IMG/VR virus record: IMGVR_UViG_3300028840_007531
Span: 1 to 38,617 of that record
Reading direction: 5' to 3' (one strand)
Length of the DNA stretch: 38,617 nucleotides
Origin: a virus
Part shown: piece after piece, positions 629 through 31,006 of the stretch
How positions within the stretch are numbered: the stretch's first letter is position 1
Layout of the letters: every line of letters begins with the position of its first letter
The notes under the pieces: model-generated
Seen by the model: only the letters and a program-made list of their open reading frames with translations
The model's database searches: none
Told to the model about the DNA's origin: nothing
Made by a program: the position numbers and the translations under genes

Positions 629-3286
629 CTAATATCCCTGTCGGAGTCCCACCAACCGTCCGTAGAGGGTGGGTTTTCCATCGTTGGCGAAGGCGTGCAG
701 CCTCCGAAAACATTCGTCGTAGTAGGGCATCCGCTGGCTACACGTCGCGCAGCATGGGTGACGTCCCGCGCGCTGAAACTTCCGTTGCCATAGGTCGAGT
801 AAGTCCTCGTCATATCTCCCAATCACGCCGTCCACGGGGGAGACGTCGGGGCACTGCAGTACGTCGCCTTCCCACGTGATAGACAGGTTATGCCAGTTGG
901 GGCACGGCCTGCCCTCCGAGAGTTTGCCGGCGGCGTACTGGGTACTCCACATCTGCCGAATCAAGTCGTCCCACGTCAGGGGTTGTTCGGCGTCGAGGCC
1001 CGCGCTCGTCGCCCGATCCAAGCTGAAGTGGAGGGGCCGGATATCATGCGTGTACTGGGCGAAGCGTTTGCGCCATTGGGGCAACTCGTGGAAGTTGAGG
1101 CCGGTCAACACGTAGTTCAAGATGATGCGTTGATTCGGCAACAGGTGATCGGTGACCCATTCCAGGGTGTTGAGGGCATCATGAAATTTATCGTGGCCAT
1201 GCATCATCCGATACGTTTCGCGGGAAGCCGCTGAGATCGTGAAGCGGATGACGTCGATGTGGGGGTTCATCAACAAGTCGCGGTTTTTATATAGCGTTCC
1301 GTTGCTGTAGGCTTCCACCGTCGCATGCGGTTGATACTTATCAAAGAGAGGCGTGATGTCGGGGAGGCGGTGTTCGAGCAGGATTTCGCCATTCATGAAG
1401 GCGCAAATCGTGTCCACGTCAAGGCCGCGGTCACTGAAGTATCGGAGGACGGTTTCCATGACGTCGATGGGCATGTAGCCGCGGCCCCGCCGCTCCGCGA
1501 AGGCGTGTTGGGGGTTACAGTTTTTGGATACAAGGCCATTTGCAATATAGTTATGAGTGTCTGTTTCAAGGTTGTATACAGTTTGTTCTTCTTCAATCTT
1601 TTCAATGCGAATAAAAGATGAAGTTCCATAACATCCTTTTCCAAAAAATGATTGTCGCCTTCGCTGAACCGCGGGATTGGTCATTGCGAAAAAATATACG
1701 GTGGCTTCAAGACCACCTCGAAGACGTATACCGTGTCTTTCCTGTATCCAATCGAAATTTAACGCGGTCAGTGATTCAGTAATTCTTTTTAATATTGCCT
1801 CATCATAATTGGTTATACGTATGACATCACTATATGAGCCTTCTGCATCAAAGATTCCTGCTAAATATCCACGATAAAAATCTTTGTCGTGTATCCAATA
1901 CTTCACGATATTAATCATATTATTGTATATTGTGCGATTATTGCAGGGTATTGCTATTAAATCATCTCCTGTCTTGTTTTTATGTGGACGAGGCTTCACA
2001 GTTAAACCAGTATATTTCAAGAAACGATCAATGATTTCATAGTCTTTCACGGCCAAACGAAAATAATAATTTACGTCGGTTTGAGGGTTATAACCGCGGT
2101 TGCGAGGATATTTTTTGAGACATCCATCGCCTTCAATTATTCCTCTCAGCCAGCCCGATTTATAGGCATTGTTTGCTTCAAAAATGGTTGGAGGTGATAA
2201 CCATTTTATTCGTTGATTTGTTGATGTATTATATTTTATTGCTGGACGATATCGACTGTGTTTGTCAAGCCATCGATGGTTGGGCGTACATATTACTGAG
2301 CTTTTTTCTGTGATAAAACGAATAACTCGGCTTTTTCGTTTAAATGTTTTACGAACAGTAGTTTTAACATATTTCCAATGTCCTTCTTCTGGTTTATGTA
2401 ATCCGATAACTTGGTCACCAATTTCAATATGTTGAATTGGCTTCCAAGATAAATCACCCATTAAAACCAAAGTATCTTTACCAAGACAATAAATACAATT
2501 CAAGTTACAATAATTATGCGTGTCCAGTTGAATCGTGGTGGGGTGCCGCGCCCACCGGGGGACGCCGTACCGCATCCGATGAAGTATTCGTTTTCGTATA
2601 ACGGGATTTGTGAGTAAATAGTACAGTCCCCGTGGCCACGTGAGGCCACGGCGGATCCAGAGGTATTCCCGCCACTCGTCGGCGAAGGGGTTGAGGGGCA
2701 GTTTCCTCGCCCACGCGTAGAGGTAGCCGAGGATCTTGGTGAGGTTGCCTTCGACGGCGCGGTCCTGTATGTAGGTGTCGAGGGGCCACCCCACGCGGTA
2801 GCAGTCGTGGCCCTCCTCCCATCGCCGCTTGATGTTTTCTTGCGGCCACTTCAGAATCGTGGGTTTGCACACCCAGTCGGATAAGAGGCATTTTAATCCC
2901 CGCATCTCGAAGACGTAGTGGGGGAGGCTGTCCTCCATGTCGGTTTCGTTCCACCGCCCCAGCATGGCGAGGAAGGGTTGCATGCGGATGAGGAGGCCCG
3001 CGCCCATCCCCATGATATCATAGTCCGCCGCGATGTTTTCTTCGAGGAAATCAGGGGGAAAGAGGATGTCGTCGTCGGCTTTCAGCAGCCAATCGTATTG
3101 CGTTAAATCGATGTGGTCGAGGACCTCGTTGATGGCTTCGCCGACCCGCTGCCCCACACTCTTCCACCATACGCCGGGTTTATCCGCGATATAAATGTCG
3201 GGTTGCAGGGTTTGGGCGAAGAGGCTGTCGAGGGTGCGCTGGGCGTCCTCGACGCGGCGGGTGACGACGATGGCGAGGGCCTTCAT
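629..3286 (-). CDS. GT2 glycosyltransferase / radical-SAM fusion with intein
   Basis: This 885-residue precursor should become about 562 residues after splicing. Residues 1-230 look like a GT2 glycosyltransferase, with an N-terminal beta-alpha nucleotide-binding start and an acidic DDD at 70-72 (KADDDILFPPDF). From residue 250 there is a radical-SAM domain. Its CxxxCxxC cluster motif uses Cys260 and Cys264, and the third Cys is supplied only after the intein (residues 267-589) is removed, when Cys590 joins Ile265-Tyr266. The C-terminus has a SPASM-like Cys set (CPNW, LQCPD, then CCATC), typical of auxiliary cluster domains. The gene overlaps the start of its 3' neighbour in the operon by four bases. 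Neighbouring genes point to glycan modification. The fused enzyme presumably transfers or modifies a sugar or a peptide/lipid-linked precursor; the substrate is unknown. Confidence 0.85.
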   Translation of the reverse strand: MKALAIVVTRRVEDAQRTLDSLFAQTLQPDIYIADKPGVWWKSVGQRVGEAINEVLDHIDLTQYDWLLKADDDILFPPDFLEENIAADYDIMGMGAGLLIRMQPFLAMLGRWNETDMEDSLPHYVFEMRGLKCLLSDWVCKPTILKWPQENIKRRWEEGHDCYRVGWPLDTYIQDRAVEGNLTKILGYLYAWARKLPLNPFADEWREYLWIRRGLTWPRGLYYLLTNPVIRKRILHRMRYGVPRWARHPTTIQLDTHNYCNLNCIYCLGKDTLVLMGDLSWKPIQHIEIGDQVIGLHKPEEGHWKYVKTTVRKTFKRKSRVIRFITEKSSVICTPNHRWLDKHSRYRPAIKYNTSTNQRIKWLSPPTIFEANNAYKSGWLRGIIEGDGCLKKYPRNRGYNPQTDVNYYFRLAVKDYEIIDRFLKYTGLTVKPRPHKNKTGDDLIAIPCNNRTIYNNMINIVKYWIHDKDFYRGYLAGIFDAEGSYSDVIRITNYDEAILKRITESLTALNFDWIQERHGIRLRGGLEATVYFFAMTNPAVQRRRQSFFGKGCYGTSSFIRIEKIEEEQTVYNLETDTHNYIANGLVSKNCNPQHAFAERRGRGYMPIDVMETVLRYFSDRGLDVDTICAFMNGEILLEHRLPDITPLFDKYQPHATVEAYSNGTLYKNRDLLMNPHIDVIRFTISAASRETYRMMHGHDKFHDALNTLEWVTDHLLPNQRIILNYVLTGLNFHELPQWRKRFAQYTHDIRPLHFSLDRATSAGLDAEQPLTWDDLIRQMWSTQYAAGKLSEGRPCPNWHNLSITWEGDVLQCPDVSPVDGVIGRYDEDLLDLWQRKFQRAGRHPCCATCSQRMPYYDECFRRLHAFANDGKPTLYGRLVGLRQGY
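1520..2488 (-). mobile_element. LAGLIDADG homing intein within the radical-SAM motif
   Basis: The element encodes 323 residues, Cys267 to Asn589 of the host protein. Block A starts at CLGKDTLVLM. Block B is TPNH (334-337) with the expected Thr and His. Two dodecapeptide motifs, LRGIIEGDG (380-388) and LAGIFDAEG (475-483), mark a LAGLIDADG homing endonuclease. Block F reads VYNLETDTHNYIANG, and block G ends SKN followed by extein Cys590. The penultimate residue is Lys rather than the usual His. The DNA is clearly more AT-rich than the flanking extein, consistent with acquisition by homing. Removal restores the sequence CNLNCIYCNPQ. Confidence 0.93.
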
Positions 3287-5711: not shown

Positions 5712-6527
5712 CTAGAGGAGAAGGGTGATGGCCCGCCCCATCGTCGCGCTGCCGCCGCCCACCGTTGCTTGGGCTTCGCCGAGGAAGTCGTCAACATCAC
5801 TCTTCGTCGTCGCAATCACGATGTCGGTATGGTACACGTACTTCGCGTTTTGGTTAAGCCCCGTATAGAGACCACATTTGAACCGGTGGTTAGCATAGCC
5901 GTCTGCGACATCGGTGGGGCACATGCGGTAGTCACCGGAGTCATCAACGATTTTGTCGCCGTCATACCACAGTTCAAACTGGCCGTCCTCAACGCAGTTG
6001 AGGTGGTAGATGTGGGTGAAGGGTCGTCCCCGAATCAAATCATAGTATTCATAAGTTGTGGTCACAAACTCGCTGATACTATAATCGTATTTTCGGTATT
6101 TCCACCGCACCTCTTGGTTACTATATTGGACGTAGAAGGCGACGCCCCACGTGCCATGCTCCTTCAACTGGAACAAGCAGCAGCCTTGTGGCCAACAATC
6201 CGTTCCGTAAATTGTGTAGAAGTCCGATGGTAGATAGGTGCGAAGGCCATAATAGAGGTCTGAATCATCTTCACGGAAGCTCCCAGACCCCGGATAATTA
6301 TCGCTGCGACTGACCTCGGCGCGGCACTTACAGTCGGTGCTCGGGTCCGATGGATAGGTGGGGTCCACGACGTGAGCTTTCAACCACGTTCGACCAAGAA
6401 ATGATTCCAGCGTCAACGTCGAGTACGGTGGGTCGTCCTGCACCAGTCCTCCACCGCCTTCGGAAAAGATGTCCACGCCTTCGGGTTCGAGAAATCGTGT
6501 GCTGAAGCGAATGGTCATCCATCTCAC
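5712..6527 (-). CDS. polysaccharide-lyase-fold tail protein (heparin lyase I-like)
   Basis: This 271-residue protein resembles the concanavalin-like beta-jelly-roll of the Polysacc_lyase family. It has a RAEVSR motif near residue 70, YYGLRTYLPSDF, LFQLKEHGTWG, a FELWYDGDKIVDD strand and a terminal CGLYTGLNQN ... YHTDIVIA strand. Six or more Cys residues suggest disulfides or metal sites. The protein ends in a Gly-rich linker and hydrophobic tail (GGGSATMGRAITLLL). Its place among tail-tip genes suggests a depolymerase or sugar-binding adhesin that engages capsular or cell-wall polysaccharide. The start is GTG in a GTGA overlap with the upstream stop; an ATG three codons in is possible. Catalytic activity is unproven. 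Confidence 0.72.
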   Translation of the reverse strand: MRWMTIRFSTRFLEPEGVDIFSEGGGGLVQDDPPYSTLTLESFLGRTWLKAHVVDPTYPSDPSTDCKCRAEVSRSDNYPGSGSFREDDSDLYYGLRTYLPSDFYTIYGTDCWPQGCCLFQLKEHGTWGVAFYVQYSNQEVRWKYRKYDYSISEFVTTTYEYYDLIRGRPFTHIYHLNCVEDGQFELWYDGDKIVDDSGDYRMCPTDVADGYANHRFKCGLYTGLNQNAKYVYHTDIVIATTKSDVDDFLGEAQATVGGGSATMGRAITLLL

Positions 6528-14187: not shown

Positions 14188-14580
14188 TTAGACGGGTAGC
14201 GTCAGTGACTTGCCTTCGCCAGCGACGTTTTCGAGGACGATGCCGTCCTGCGTGACCGTCATCTCCCAACTCGTGAAGATGGCGTCGTTGATCTTGTAGA
14301 ATCCACCGCCGCCTCCACTGCCCGCGGGATGCACCTCGATGTCCGTTGCGGTGCCTGCCTCCACGAGGGTCGCGTAGGTGTTGTCGATGTACAGGAAGTC
14401 GATGGTGAACGGGAAACTCTTGTTACCGTCCTCCAGGATCGCCGGCATGTCGCCGTCGGTGCCGATGAAGTAGGCCTTGATGACGTCTGTGCTGATGCCG
14501 ACGGTGCAGCCGGTGCCGTAGCCCACGGCAGTGTCTGCGATGTAGATGTCTACGTCTCTGCCGATTACTGGTGTACTCAT
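14188..14580 (-). CDS. major tail tube protein
   Basis: This is a 130-residue protein starting MSTPVIGRDVDIYI. The beta-rich pattern (CTVGISTDVIKAYFI, FPFTIDFLYIDNTYATLVEAG, a Gly-rich loop, then FTSWEMTVTQDG) fits small phage tail tube proteins. Position supports it: after the tail terminator and before chaperone and tape measure. AAGGAGG lies nine bases before the ATG. The RNA just upstream carries hammerhead-like ribozyme copy A. Confidence 0.82.
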   Translation of the reverse strand: MSTPVIGRDVDIYIADTAVGYGTGCTVGISTDVIKAYFIGTDGDMPAILEDGNKSFPFTIDFLYIDNTYATLVEAGTATDIEVHPAGSGGGGGFYKINDAIFTSWEMTVTQDGIVLENVAGEGKSLTLPV

Positions 14581-14606
14581 GGTTTTTCCTCCTTTTCAAT
14601 TCGATT

Positions 14607-14662
14607 TATGCTTTCTATCCCCTTTCGGGGATTCATCAGCCCCGTCAATTCGGGGAAGCATA
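14607..14662 (-). ncRNA. hammerhead-like self-cleaving ribozyme, copy A (type III)
   Basis: Minus-strand RNA in order: stem III 5' strand UAUGCU (14662-14657), H17 U (14656), stem I CCCCG / loop AAUUGA / CGGGG (14655-14640), core CUGAUGA (14639-14633), stem II AUCCCC / GAAA / GGGGAU (14632-14617), an extra A, then GAA (14615-14613) and stem III 3' strand AGCAUA (14612-14607). Cleavage is predicted after 14656, triplet CUU. The stop codon of the upstream gene is in loop I. The unpaired A before GAA departs from the usual consensus. Confidence 0.82.
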
Positions 14663-15124
14663 CGTCGCTAACTTATATAGAAAATCCGTCAACAATACGG
14701 GGTACAGTTGATCCCTATATGCTTCATAATGGTCGTTGGAGATCATGTGCCATCGGAGACCCCACTGCTCGCGGATGCTCCGCACAAACGCGTCTCTAGA
14801 TACCTCGTCTTTCATCGTATCGAGTTCTTCGGCGACCAACAGGAAGGCGAGGGCCAGCCACTGCCGGTAGTACCGGTCTTCCTCCATAATGTAGGTGAGG
14901 ACCTTCACCATGGTTTGGAGGACTTGGTGAAAATTATTATCGTCAAGGCCACGCCGCTGCTGTAACTCCTCAAGCGTATACGTGTTCTCCAGACGCTGAA
15001 AGACCCGCTGCAGAATCAGGGTCTGTGGATGGGTGGCGGGGCGTTCAGGCACCACCGCGTTCAGGAGGGGTATGAGGCGGTTGATGACGCCCTTCACCAC
15101 ATGGAGCTTCACGGTGTCAGCCAT
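14645..15124 (-). CDS. hypothetical helical protein upstream of the tail tube gene
   Basis: This is a 159-residue, largely alpha-helical protein (TLEELQQRRGLDDNNFHQVLQTMVKVLTYIMEE ... RYYRQWLALAFLLVAEEL). The start ATG overlaps the upstream stop as TAATG. Its last codons and stop fall inside hammerhead copy A, so predicted cleavage lies inside the coding region, within the fourth-last codon counting the stop. It may be remotely related to the protein at 19545-20093 (both have a xYYxxWxxxF helix), but the similarity is weak. The role is unknown. Confidence 0.72.
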   Translation of the reverse strand: MADTVKLHVVKGVINRLIPLLNAVVPERPATHPQTLILQRVFQRLENTYTLEELQQRRGLDDNNFHQVLQTMVKVLTYIMEEDRYYRQWLALAFLLVAEELDTMKDEVSRDAFVRSIREQWGLRWHMISNDHYEAYRDQLYPVLLTDFLYKLATYASPN

Positions 15125-20093: not shown

Positions 20094-20385
20094 GGAGCTT
20101 CAACCAATCTGATAACCAAACAACGGTTTGTGCGTCAGCGGTTCGGTCTTCTTCCGGTATTTCTGTCAAGGACGCTATAATATCAGAGTGAACACTAGAG
20201 ATGAGGGGGCAGTTTTCCATTATTCTCTTGAAATCATCCACATGCATCCAACATCGCTCGTTTTCGGCGGCTTCCCGCTGCCGCATGTTCTGTAGAATGG
20301 CTTCGACGGAGCCGTAGGGGCGCAGTGGCGGAATCGTCTTTCGGATGTCCCGCCACGACCGCAGGTACTTCTCTAATTCACCCAT
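20080..20385 (-). CDS. hypothetical protein
   Basis: This is a 101-residue, mainly helical protein starting MGELEKYLRSWRDIRKTIPPL. The region after residue 40 (RCWMHVDDFKRIMENCPLISSVHSDIIASLTEIPEEDR) has no motif I recognise. It is tightly packed between a zinc-ribbon gene (one-base overlap) and a helical protein gene. Its place near the capsid genes is the only functional hint. Confidence 0.62.
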   Translation of the reverse strand: MGELEKYLRSWRDIRKTIPPLRPYGSVEAILQNMRQREAAENERCWMHVDDFKRIMENCPLISSVHSDIIASLTEIPEEDRTADAQTVVWLSDWLKLLAPN

Positions 20386-20648
20386 TATCGCGCTCTCACG
20401 GGGATGCGTTCTGACCCGATGTGAATCGCCTTCAACTTGGGAAACTGGAGTCGCCGAGGGTTAAACCGCAGCTCCTGCATCCGCTTCGTGATGAGGGGCC
20501 ACCCGCCATTGCCCTGACAGGTGGGGCACCACGTCTCCGACATCACTCGGCCCAGCGAGTCGTCCCACGACGCGGATTTCCCGGAGCCGTGGCAGTTCCA
20601 GCATTTCTGCCAGAACTCGGGGTACACATTTGTCTTCTTAATCTTCAT
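20385..20648 (-). CDS. DnaJ-type zinc-finger small protein
   Basis: This is an 87-residue protein with two CxxCxGxG-like motifs: CWNCHGSGKS at 16-25 and CPTCQGNGGW at 41-50. It is a single DnaJ-like central zinc site and may act as a chaperone-like or protein-binding module during assembly. Its start codon at 20648 lies in stem III of hammerhead copy B, and its GGAG ribosome site lies in stem II, so folding of the RNA should hide the initiation region. It is the first gene after the major capsid gene. Confidence 0.78.
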   Translation of the reverse strand: MKIKKTNVYPEFWQKCWNCHGSGKSASWDDSLGRVMSETWCPTCQGNGGWPLITKRMQELRFNPRRLQFPKLKAIHIGSERIPVRAR

Positions 20649-20700
20649 TTTCTGCCTCCGTGTGGGGGCTCATCAGACCCGTCAATTCGGGTGAATAAAA
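20643..20700 (-). ncRNA. hammerhead-like self-cleaving ribozyme, copy B (type III)
   Basis: Minus-strand RNA in order: stem III 5' strand UUUUAUU (20700-20694), H17 C (20693), stem I ACCCG / loop AAUUGA / CGGGU (20692-20677), core CUGAUGA (20676-20670), stem II GCCCCC / ACAC / GGAGGC with one C-A mismatch (20669-20654), an extra A, GAA (20652-20650), and stem III 3' strand AAUGAAG (20649-20643, two G-U pairs). Cleavage is predicted after 20693, triplet UUC. Stems differ from copy A yet still pair, including the switch from C-G to A-U at the base of stem I. Confidence 0.83.
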
Positions 20701-20710
20701 GTGGGGGAGG

Positions 20711-20747
20711 TATCGGTAAATACCTGAATTAATAAGGAATACCGATA
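20711..20747 (-). other. 8-bp hairpin after the major capsid gene
   Basis: The arms TATCGGTA and TACCGATA pair perfectly around a 21-base AT-rich loop. It begins seven bases after the capsid stop codon and ends ten bases before hammerhead copy B. There is no U-run, so it is not a standard intrinsic terminator. It could protect the 3' end left after ribozyme cleavage, stabilising the capsid mRNA (inference). Confidence 0.55.
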
Positions 20748-20753
20748 GTATGC

Positions 20754-21629
20754 CTAGATGTTGGTGAGGGTGCAGATGGCGTTGGTTTCCCAGATCCGGG
20801 GTACAACACATTCGTAGACAACACCGTACAAGTCCTTGCCGAAGTTCAGCGGCAGAATCTCCATCATCGACGTCGTATCGACGCCGACGGCGAGGTCAAA
20901 GAACCCGCGGTCACCCGCCGCGACCAACATGCCTGTGGCAGCGGTCTGCGCGGATGTCTCGTAGATATGTCCGCCAATGATGCGTTGCACGACATCCACT
21001 TCAGCGACAGCGGTGTTCGTAACGACATCGAACATCTCCCGGTACTGCGTGGGGTTCAACACCATGTTGACCGGTGGATAGATGTTATCGGTTTCGAGGA
21101 CGGCGAGGGCGAGGTTGACCTTCTGGATCGCGTAGAGTGCGGTGCCGAAGTCCTTGGAAGTGGCTTCCGTGTTGTTCGCTGCCTGATACAGCCCGTTCAA
21201 GTCATACGTTGAGCCGTCAGCCGCGAAGCCGTCGAGGATTAAGTCATCTTCGAGCTTCGAGACCTTGTAGGCCGCGGACTTGGCGGTGGCGGTGTCCAGG
21301 CGGATGCCGCTTTCCCGCATCGAGGCGAGGCTGCGAGCGTTGATGCGGAAGGGTTTCTTGAGGACGGGAACCTTGGTGACGGTGCGTGCGGTGAGTCCGG
21401 TGTCTTCGCTGCCGCGGGCGCTCCACGCAAATTCGAGGGTGGCGTCCGCGACCTCAGTCAGTAAGTCGTAGGTAATGGATTGTGTGCCGAAGCCGAGGGG
21501 CCCATAGAGCGGCGTAAGCCGTCGGCCGATCATGGCTTGCCGAGCCGCCACCTTGATGGCGGCGTCAACCTGCCGATAGGCCTCCAATGGAACCGGCGCG
21601 TCGGTTCGGAACGCTGAGATTGATTGCAT
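20754..21629 (-). CDS. major capsid protein, HK97-fold
   Basis: This 291-residue protein begins with an N-terminal helix (EAYRQVDAAIKVAARQAMIGRRLTPLYGPLGFG). It has a spine-helix-like segment (LDTATAKSAAYKVSKLEDDLILDG), a P-domain-like VNMVLNPTQYREMFDVV and a C-terminal beta strand (AICTLTNI). The arrangement resembles encapsulin-like HK97-fold capsid proteins. AAGGAGA precedes the ATG. It follows the decoration-like gene and the protease/scaffold gene, the normal order. Some GC-rich repeats in the DNA reflect the Ala-rich coding. Confidence 0.88.
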   Translation of the reverse strand: MQSISAFRTDAPVPLEAYRQVDAAIKVAARQAMIGRRLTPLYGPLGFGTQSITYDLLTEVADATLEFAWSARGSEDTGLTARTVTKVPVLKKPFRINARSLASMRESGIRLDTATAKSAAYKVSKLEDDLILDGFAADGSTYDLNGLYQAANNTEATSKDFGTALYAIQKVNLALAVLETDNIYPPVNMVLNPTQYREMFDVVTNTAVAEVDVVQRIIGGHIYETSAQTAATGMLVAAGDRGFFDLAVGVDTTSMMEILPLNFGKDLYGVVYECVVPRIWETNAICTLTNI

Positions 21630-26235: not shown

Positions 26236-27594
26236 TTATCGTAGGCTTGACCGGTACCGCGTCCGCTGCCCCTTATTTAATAACGCAAATGCGCCACTGG
26301 TCGCGTCCACCTGATCCTTGAATTTGCCTTCGGGAAACAACATTAATTCATCAAGATATGCTTCGTTCCATAAACCCGAAACCAGTTTCACATTACCTGC
26401 TTCTGCGGCGCTGCTCACGGGGTTGGCTCGCAATTCCTTGCTGCCCGTCACCTTGTCACCGTAAAACGGGAAGCCTTTCAATATTTTTCGCCGGTAATGG
26501 TCAATGGTGTTTACACCTGCACTTCCAGGCTCCTGCTCCATCCCAATAATACAGGCGTTTCCGAATCGGGCGCGGTCAAGTTGCGCCGTCAACTTTACTA
26601 GGGATTCTACGCCAAGTGGTGTTAACTGGTCCCGCTGTACATTAATGATGTAATATTGCCCTTTTGATTCACCGAGAAGGACGCCCGCCGTATATGCGGG
26701 ATCGTTATCTTTCGTCTTCTCCGTTGCCGCAATATCCCAATACCGCACTAAACGACATTTCTTTGGGTAGTCTTCCACTATTTCAAACCATGATCGCTTG
26801 AATTTTCGTCCTTCACCCCGGATCTCCCAGTTACCTTCGAGGAGCCGCGCCCGCGTGATGGGGTCAAGGCGGTTGAGGCTGCGGACGTAGCTGACGCGGT
26901 CGAGGTTGCGGTTATCTTCAAGCTTCGCGGGGACGAAGGGACGCTGGGGGTGACCGGGCTTCACGAAGCGGCGGTACACCCACTCCAGTCCGATACCGTC
27001 GGGGTTGCCCGCGCAGCGGAGCCGCAGCGGAATCGTGGTGTCTTCGAGGCGGCGGAGGCGGCTGCTGAGATACGTGTACTGGGTTTCGGTGAACTGCGGC
27101 AACTCGTCGAAGCCGATGTACTGGTAGGCCGAGGATTGGTAGCGGTACTTGTCTTTCTCCGACTCCATATTGCCGAACGCGAGTTTGGCGGATGAGGGAA
27201 ACGTCCAGATGTGGTCACGGTCATTCCAATGCGCGTCGGTGCCGCTGAGCCACTCCTGCGCCCGGTCCATCAGGGCCTCAGGAAGCTTCAAATCCGAGAA
27301 GGTGCGTCGGAAGAGGATGGCAGCGTACCGCGGGACATCCACATACTGGAGGGCACCCATCAAGAGCGCGTCGCTTTTGCCTCCGCCTGCGGCTCCACCG
27401 TAGAACGCTTCTTCCTCTGGAATTGATAAAAATAAAGCCTGTTTTTCCGTTAAGCCTTTTCCATCATCCCTCGGCAGCCGATGGCTTTCAGGTATCCACG
27501 GGTTCTCAAGTATCGTCGTCTTCAGCAGATTCCGCATCAATGAGAGTTGGCGGGAAGAGTACCGCGAATTGGCCGAGGAGGGCGTCAATATCAT
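26236..27594 (-). CDS. terL: terminase large subunit
   Basis: This is a 452-residue ATPase-nuclease. The ATPase part has Walker A YGGAAGGGKS (65-74) and Walker B YIGFDEL (159-165). The nuclease part shows RYWDIAA (284-290, Asp287), GMEQEPGS (351-358) and KDQVDATSGA, the three acidic clusters of the RNase-H-like fold. It motors DNA into the prohead. The start at 27594 overlaps terS by 323 bases in reading; an in-frame ATG at 27537 would overlap less. Ribosome sites are weak at both, so the start is uncertain. Confidence 0.93.
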   Translation of the reverse strand: MILTPSSANSRYSSRQLSLMRNLLKTTILENPWIPESHRLPRDDGKGLTEKQALFLSIPEEEAFYGGAAGGGKSDALLMGALQYVDVPRYAAILFRRTFSDLKLPEALMDRAQEWLSGTDAHWNDRDHIWTFPSSAKLAFGNMESEKDKYRYQSSAYQYIGFDELPQFTETQYTYLSSRLRRLEDTTIPLRLRCAGNPDGIGLEWVYRRFVKPGHPQRPFVPAKLEDNRNLDRVSYVRSLNRLDPITRARLLEGNWEIRGEGRKFKRSWFEIVEDYPKKCRLVRYWDIAATEKTKDNDPAYTAGVLLGESKGQYYIINVQRDQLTPLGVESLVKLTAQLDRARFGNACIIGMEQEPGSAGVNTIDHYRRKILKGFPFYGDKVTGSKELRANPVSSAAEAGNVKLVSGLWNEAYLDELMLFPEGKFKDQVDATSGAFALLNKGQRTRYRSSLR

Positions 27595-30336: not shown

Positions 30337-30524
30337 TATTCCAGTTCCTCCGCGCGGTGCTCATTCAGCACAATCCACGCTTTGAGGGCACGGATAAATC
30401 CCAAGCTCAACGTTCGGCGGGAATACCTGTCAATCTTCGTGAGGCATTCATGTTCACCCTGGTACACGGTGACGGTGACTTCGGGATTGTAGGAGATGTG
30501 GTGGACTTGCATGGCTCTCGTCAT
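30336..30524 (-). CDS. small hypothetical protein
   Basis: This is a 62-residue protein whose start MTRAMQVHHISYNPEV is favoured because the ATG overlaps the stop of the radical-SAM gene (ATGA). It has a beta strand VTVTVYQGEH, then a basic helix (RYSRRTLSLGFIRALKAW) and an acidic end. No family is recognised. Confidence 0.6.
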   Translation of the reverse strand: MTRAMQVHHISYNPEVTVTVYQGEHECLTKIDRYSRRTLSLGFIRALKAWIVLNEHRAEELE

Positions 30525-31006
30525 TGCTCGTATTCCTCCCAAGGGATGAACTCGTAGAAGCGTTGATTCACCCAACGAGCAAAATCGTGAAGTTGTTTGC
30601 CAGGTTTGTTGTTGTAGATCATGATGAAGGGCATACAACCCAGCTTGGCGATGACGTTGTGGTGGCTGATCCAGTCGAATGGGGTTTCCCTGATGAGTCC
30701 CTCTTTTTCGCGGATGATGCAGAACCCGCAGTCACGGATGCAGCCCCGCGACGTGAAGCCGATGCTGTAATCCGCCTTGAATCCCTCATAATCAGGGACG
30801 ACGGCTTCGATTTCAGGTGGTAACTCACTCTTCAAGTCGTAGCCAGATCCCCCGACAAAGACCTTACTCGCGTAGACACGATCAAATTTATGATTACTCA
30901 TATCAAGAACGGTGACCTCGTCCCCTCGCTTCTTATGCCACGCCGACAACTTCATCAAGGCAAGATTATGCATTTTGCCGTCGAGTTGAATTAATCCAAC
31001 CCGCAT
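30521..31006 (-). CDS. B12-binding-type radical-SAM protein, apparently shortened
   Basis: This 161-residue protein begins with a B12-binding-like Rossmann fold (MRVGLIQLDGKMHNLALMKLSAWHKKRGDEVTVLD). A radical-SAM cluster motif CIRDCGFC follows (Cys89, Cys93, Cys96). Complete relatives seen in phages and clostridia continue for about 150 more residues with the SAM-binding barrel. Here only a short tail remains (EYEQ at the end), so the protein is probably inactive or needs a partner. Its stop overlaps the next ATG, so the shortening looks stable. Confidence 0.76.
   Translation of the reverse strand: MRVGLIQLDGKMHNLALMKLSAWHKKRGDEVTVLDMSNHKFDRVYASKVFVGGSGYDLKSELPPEIEAVVPDYEGFKADYSIGFTSRGCIRDCGFCIIREKEGLIRETPFDWISHHNVIAKLGCMPFIMIYNNKPGKQLHDFARWVNQRFYEFIPWEEYEQ

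Follow-up and report, generated by a model that had tools for sequence, protein, structure and literature searches.

The window, that is, the whole stretch of viral DNA analysed (38,617 nt, IMG/VR record IMGVR_UViG_3300028840_007531), carries on its minus strand a major capsid protein gene and, immediately downstream, a small gene whose start is overlapped by a hammerhead-like element, here called copy B. A second such element, copy A, lies in the same window. The features concerned are:

20754-21629 (-): major capsid protein gene, just upstream of copy B (phrog_264 major head protein, E=1e-7)
20711-20747 (-): inverted repeat UAUCGGUA...UACCGAUA between the capsid stop and the ribozyme, from a computed fold
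20643-20700 (-): copy B
20385-20648 (-): downstream gene, 87 aa, CxxC zinc-finger-like
14603-14665 (-): copy A, sister type III hammerhead, predicted cut 14656/14655

The product of gene 20385-20648 gives a weak match to the anti-termination Q-like family phrog_6060 (E=1.5e-4). A scan of positions 20350-20900 revealed no promoter or terminator pattern, so that co-transcription of the capsid gene and copy B is likely. Just 5' of copy B, a CCUCC (20705-20710, minus strand) is complementary to the Shine-Dalgarno sequence GGAGG; before cleavage the two could pair, an arrangement not favoured by the energy model. The 3' end of copy A is located 26 nt ahead of a gene with its own Shine-Dalgarno sequence (14188-14580). 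The upstream ORF 14645-15124 ends in a TGA that falls in the loop of copy A's stem I, beyond the predicted cut on its 3' side (14645-14656, minus strand), and cleavage would therefore strip this message of its stop codon; a similar arrangement is seen in contig L196. Elsewhere in the window, a radical SAM protein with a probable intein (629-3286, minus strand) shows LAGLIDADG, Hint and intein-splicing matches. The nearest relatives of the terminase (26236-27594, minus strand) are those of methanogen phage psiM2 (47%) and Gordonia phages, and the capsid protein (20754-21629) has weak similarity to a Halorubrum virus; the psiM2 and Halorubrum virus likenesses might indicate an archaeal host.

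By its sequence, copy B is a complete type III hammerhead at the junction of the capsid gene and the next gene, and its fold is strongly supported. CUUUUAUUC lies directly before ACCCG AAUUGA CGGGU CUGAUGA, and from 5' to 3' the parts are:

20694-20700 (-): UUUUAUU, 5' strand of stem III, pairing with 20643-20649; U16.1 is 20694
20693/20692 (-): predicted self-cleavage site between C17 (20693) and A1.1 (20692), placed by the hammerhead layout
20677-20692 (-): stem I hairpin ACCCG-AAUUGA-CGGGU, 5 bp, loop at 20682-20687
20670-20676 (-): catalytic core CUGAUGA, between stems I and II
20654-20669 (-): stem II GCCCCC-ACAC-GGAGGC, weak, with a bulged A or mismatch
20655-20659 (-): Shine-Dalgarno GGAGG within stem II, 6 nt before the ATG
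20653 (-): extra A at the junction of stem II and GAAA
20649-20652 (-): core GAAA (G12 to A15.1)
20643-20649 (-): AAUGAAG, 3' strand of stem III, with the start codon inside
20646-20648 (-): ATG within stem III

All three stems are paired (5 pairs, 5 with one bulge or mismatch, and 7), stems I and II being closed by loops and stem III open. The A15.1-U16.1 pair is present and position 17 is a C (H17 not G). A preliminary description of this DNA had placed a hammerhead-like element at 20643-20700 with a cut at 20692/20693, and the full layout agrees on both. The features that it listed as common to copies A and B (CUGAUGA, loop AAUUGA, extra A) are found in the sequence, as is the change at the foot of stem I from C-G in copy A to A-U in copy B, and its placing of the ribosome site in stem II and of the ATG in stem III is exact. 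Stems II and III, said to differ wholly while still pairing, do differ between the copies and do pair, although in copy B stem II (GCCCCC/GGAGGC) is weakened either by a C x A mismatch or by a bulged A, and the A/U-rich stem III has G-U pairs at two of its seven positions.

A strict hammerhead descriptor, run on the window and on 100 shuffles of it, retrieved copies A and B from the window (scores 16 and 14) and seven matches in total from the shuffles, the best scoring 12. Since a search of the window against Rfam gave no match, even at E=5, relatives were sought with a pattern that specified the loop and both core blocks, allowed a spacer of flexible length and left the stems and extra A free. 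In viral sequences this yielded 113 stretches, several dozen of which have all three stems paired. A related pattern, in which AGAAA was required, gave 64 matches in 257 Gb of cellular genomes and no comparable hammerhead on folding; chance matches thus rarely fold, and the search provides no host assignment.

A covariance model, R1, was trained on seven relatives of type III layout that possess the extra A, all from other viruses and including no sequence of the window. In the window it recovers copy A with 58.7 bits (E=1.1e-16) and copy B with 54.9 bits (E=2e-15). A third match (30522-30583, minus strand, E=0.063) was rejected, as it lies within coding sequence and has no CUGANGA. Against 923 kb of terminase-related viral contigs R1 gave no match at E<=1. 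The idea that copy B is a chance resemblance can draw on the loose core pattern CTGATGA...GAAA, seen three times in the window against 0.74 expected, and on the 64 cellular matches, none of which folded into a comparable hammerhead. However, the score of an independently trained model, the covariation in relatives and the existence of a second copy with an identical loop and a matching extra A make this reading scarcely credible.

The covariation is apparent in the seven training sequences, whose MAFFT alignment is free of structure-fitting bias: 13 of 17 pairs change on both sides, and the covariation score is 0.74 against 0.22. The counts for 37 distinct type III relatives were made on a model-based alignment (A5) which was fitted to structure and so leans towards it; there, 92.9% of cells pair, against 33-44% when the strands are slid, both-sided changes occur in 15 of 17 pairs, and the covariation of 0.64 (0.19 when shuffled) is reached in none of 500 shuffles. 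In stem I every cell pairs, with both-sided change at four of the five pairs. The covariance check proposed earlier thus comes out in favour of the fold. The preliminary description had taken covariation between the two window copies as a sign of selection; two copies alone are thin evidence, and the argument is carried by the 37 distinct sequences. These comparative data lend good support both to the identification as a hammerhead and to selection for the fold.

The family defined by the AAU-N-R-A loop comprises about 65 distinct copies in viral contigs, 37 of type III and about 28 of type II. The type II relatives share this loop and have a stem I hairpin like that of the window copies (GCCCGAAUCGACGGGC and similar). 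Model matches to such type II copies number 9, 9 and 13 in the whole records of L001, L145 and L197, respectively, in arrays at successive gene starts:

L001, 854-4562: type II array
L145, 1898-7938: type II array
L197, 3149-7449: type II array

Further copies, for which the preliminary description had suggested searching related viral genomes, number in the dozens in viral contigs. A same-strand ORF has its start codon no more than 60 nt past the 3' end in most of them (type III, 34 of 37; type II, 26 of 28); random 90-nt windows contain the first ATG of an ORF in about 22% of cases. Within the type II arrays, 30-36 nt separate the predicted cut from the start codon that follows, and the upstream stop codon typically precedes the cut by 20-40 nt. 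CUGANGA and the GG next to it together spell the ribosome site GAGG, at a spacing of 6-9 nt from the AUG, so that in nearly all copies the Shine-Dalgarno sequence is built from the core and stem II. Two relatives (L195 and L152) have an SD-like AGAAGG within stem III. In most type III relatives, including copy A, the Shine-Dalgarno sequence and AUG are outside the ribozyme. In five contigs (L103, L167, L190, L106 and L108), type I and type III hammerheads are mixed between genes.

Nearly all AAU-N-R-A copies have one or two unpaired A residues in the 3' strand of stem II, no more than about three pairs from the core, either at the junction or as a bulge. The unpaired A is absent from elements with other loops: neither the L005 element described below nor the type I hammerheads located in the same contigs have it. 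Type II copies lack a loop on stem II, and the hexaloop would therefore most simply dock on this unpaired A.

The same junction was compared among capsid relatives. Used as a single query, the window capsid found no relative in IMG/VR; relatives were obtained with a two-sequence and then a four-sequence profile. Among 50,697 named phages, searches at the DNA and protein level with the local DNA and with the downstream gene gave no match. In L005/L287, whose capsid is 39% identical to that of the window, the same gap holds a different hammerhead:

L005/L287, post-capsid element: UUCUGU C ACCCC UUCAAU GGGGU CCGAUGA GCCGG...CCGGC GAA ACAGGG

It is a hammerhead of type III that has the U4C change and lacks the extra A, its stems being unrelated to those of the window; it matches RF00008 (Hammerhead_3) at E=1.7e-4, below cut-off. 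For a viroid, a hammerhead with U4C is reported to be still active enough in vivo (PMC3088659). The next gene, glycosyltransferase-like as judged from its sequence, is unrelated to that of the window. The closest relative, L284 (67% capsid identity), has no hammerhead at the junction and instead a different structured element, and in the group with 44-46% capsid identity (L285, L290-L294) the gap is 15 nt long and contains no hammerhead. The L284 element (5877-5970, 90 nt) has an outer stem AGGAUCAAC...GUUGAUCC and an inner hairpin with the loop CUCCGCUU, for which AAGCGGAG, located between the inner and outer stems, is a possible pairing partner; its topology is reminiscent of twister ribozymes, and an Rfam search with it gave no match.

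A hammerhead is therefore found at the junction in two of four capsid lineages, a different structured element in one and nothing in one. Absence of the pairing from related genomes, named in the preliminary description as evidence against the fold, is seen in two of the four lineages, whereas the other two have a hammerhead at this place. This mixed presence indicates a device that is gained and lost rather than fixed, and comparison of the junctions shows a post-capsid position that is re-used, with turnover. Such patchiness among capsid relatives, together with arrays of 9, 9 and 13 copies per record, would also be expected of a mobile or selfish ribozyme cassette which spreads among viral gene junctions and is neutral for its carrier. 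Nevertheless, the stems differ at nearly every site, the fit to the Shine-Dalgarno sequence and AUG is precise, and no flanking repeats or carrier gene were noticed in a non-systematic inspection; a cassette of this kind appears improbable.

We consider it probable that copy B acts as a type III hammerhead which severs the late transcript at the junction of the capsid gene with gene 20385-20648, thereby freeing the start codon of the latter; both cleavage and translational control by copy B are what we infer from its layout. Copy B would be transcribed within a late polycistronic RNA and cut co-transcriptionally at 20693/20692, separating the capsid mRNA from the downstream mRNA. The capsid mRNA would keep the 20711-20747 hairpin near its 3' end, where it could cap the cut end, and the downstream mRNA would start with a 5'-OH and a 44-nt leader headed by the stem I hairpin. 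Once the RNA is cut, the AU-rich strand of stem III would leave and expose the AUG, and the cut RNA would be translated better than the uncut RNA. The AAU-N-R-A loop would dock on the unpaired A of stem II, replacing the usual loop-loop contact.

In a plain energy model the stem III strand pairs elsewhere, by a margin of 2.5 kcal/mol (0-3.3 in the family), and when tertiary contacts are left out the probability of the A15.1-U16.1 pair is 0.02. According to this model, the Shine-Dalgarno sequence remains in stem II, with an unpaired probability of about 0.2 both before and after the cut, and access to the AUG rises from 0.73 to 0.87 on cutting. Since the gain for the AUG is modest and that for the Shine-Dalgarno sequence nil, control of translation is possible rather than demonstrated, and the translation step proposed for copy B is weakly supported by the modelling. 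The case is stronger for type II copies, because there the partner strand of the stem bearing the Shine-Dalgarno sequence departs with the upstream product.

It could also be that copy B is a real, cutting hammerhead which serves only mRNA processing or stability, the overlap with the Shine-Dalgarno sequence and AUG being a space-saving accident. This has nearly an even chance of being correct: cutting changes AUG access little in the energy model, both signals are clear of the ribozyme in copy A and in most type III relatives, and L005 keeps the position yet has another next gene. On the other hand, the core and stem II form the Shine-Dalgarno sequence in nearly all copies of the type II arrays and an AGAAGG recurs in stem III of L195 and L152, so that the overlap is not confined to copy B. 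The weakness of stems II and III in copy B and a Shine-Dalgarno sequence paired with a probability of about 0.8 could further suggest a non-catalytic hairpin which hides the Shine-Dalgarno sequence and AUG until opened by ribosomes or a protein, its core being a relic. A mere hairpin would not keep the catalytic core, however, and CUGAUGA, GAAA, the A15.1-U16.1 pair and an H17 other than G are intact in copy B and its relatives; this explanation is therefore quite unlikely.

Beyond the single locus, a cutting hammerhead at the gene start raises a broader and distinctly tentative proposal, that of a virus-specific 'cut-to-translate' arrangement in which the cistrons of a long transcript become translatable only after self-cutting, the capsid message thereby being separated from its neighbours. 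Its anatomy would consist of AAU-N-R-A hammerheads of types II and III at successive gene starts, with the Shine-Dalgarno sequence and AUG in the fold. This anatomy makes a concrete prediction, namely that each ribozyme delimits a single cistron and overlaps its ribosome site, and since cut and start codon of the type II arrays are a fixed 30-36 nt apart, such a role is directly testable.

The literature treats the role of hammerheads in prokaryotes and their viruses as an open question (PMC6155905). Perreault et al. (2011) described hammerheads clustered around prophage genes, which cleave in vitro and in some cases in E. coli, and in the early transcript of halovirus HF1 a mapped 5' end lies within 3 nt of the hammerhead site (PMC3088659). 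Phage hammerheads are thus already known; the form combining an AAU-N-R-A loop with an unpaired A is new and is without an Rfam report. A search of the literature outside subscription papers found no report of this combination, nor of a ribosome site inside a hammerhead core. At the loci tested, Rfam 15 at its cut-offs does not report the AAU-N-R-A subfamily, and phage hammerheads are therefore probably under-counted. These elements represent a little-catalogued variety, with up to 13 copies per viral genome, at gene starts.

Compared with RF00008 (Hammerhead_3), the window copies have the same strand order, CUGAUGA and GAAA blocks, A15.1-U16.1 pair, cleavable C17 and three stems; they differ in the extra A between stem II and GAAA and in the hexaloop AAUUGA, and gave no match up to E=5, the family threshold being 48.5 bits. 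The type II family RF02276 is approached by the arrays of L001, L145 and L197, in which the stem I hairpin and unpaired A of the window copies recur; three L001 copies match it below cut-off (up to 29.6 bits against a threshold of 37). The window copies themselves are of the type III permutation and fall outside RF02276, and the pseudoknot from loop I to the 3' tail in the published type II consensus (PMC3088659) is not obvious in them. Extra core nucleotides are known from other hammerheads, such as A10 of CChMVd (PMC3705267) and U13a. Like the extra A of copy B, A10 is tolerated at the junction of the core and stem II, but it lies between A9 and 10.1 (PMC3705267), whereas the A of copy B occupies the opposite strand, with 11.1 and G12 as its neighbours. 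The core insertion of HF1 is at C3 (PMC3088659) and so also differs from that of copy B. A parallel in genomic context is provided by the prophage clusters and haloviruses HF1 and HF2 (PMC3088659), which likewise place hammerheads at phage gene junctions, the HF1 copy being 13 nt before a start codon; copy B differs from them in following the capsid gene and in holding both the Shine-Dalgarno sequence and the AUG inside the fold.
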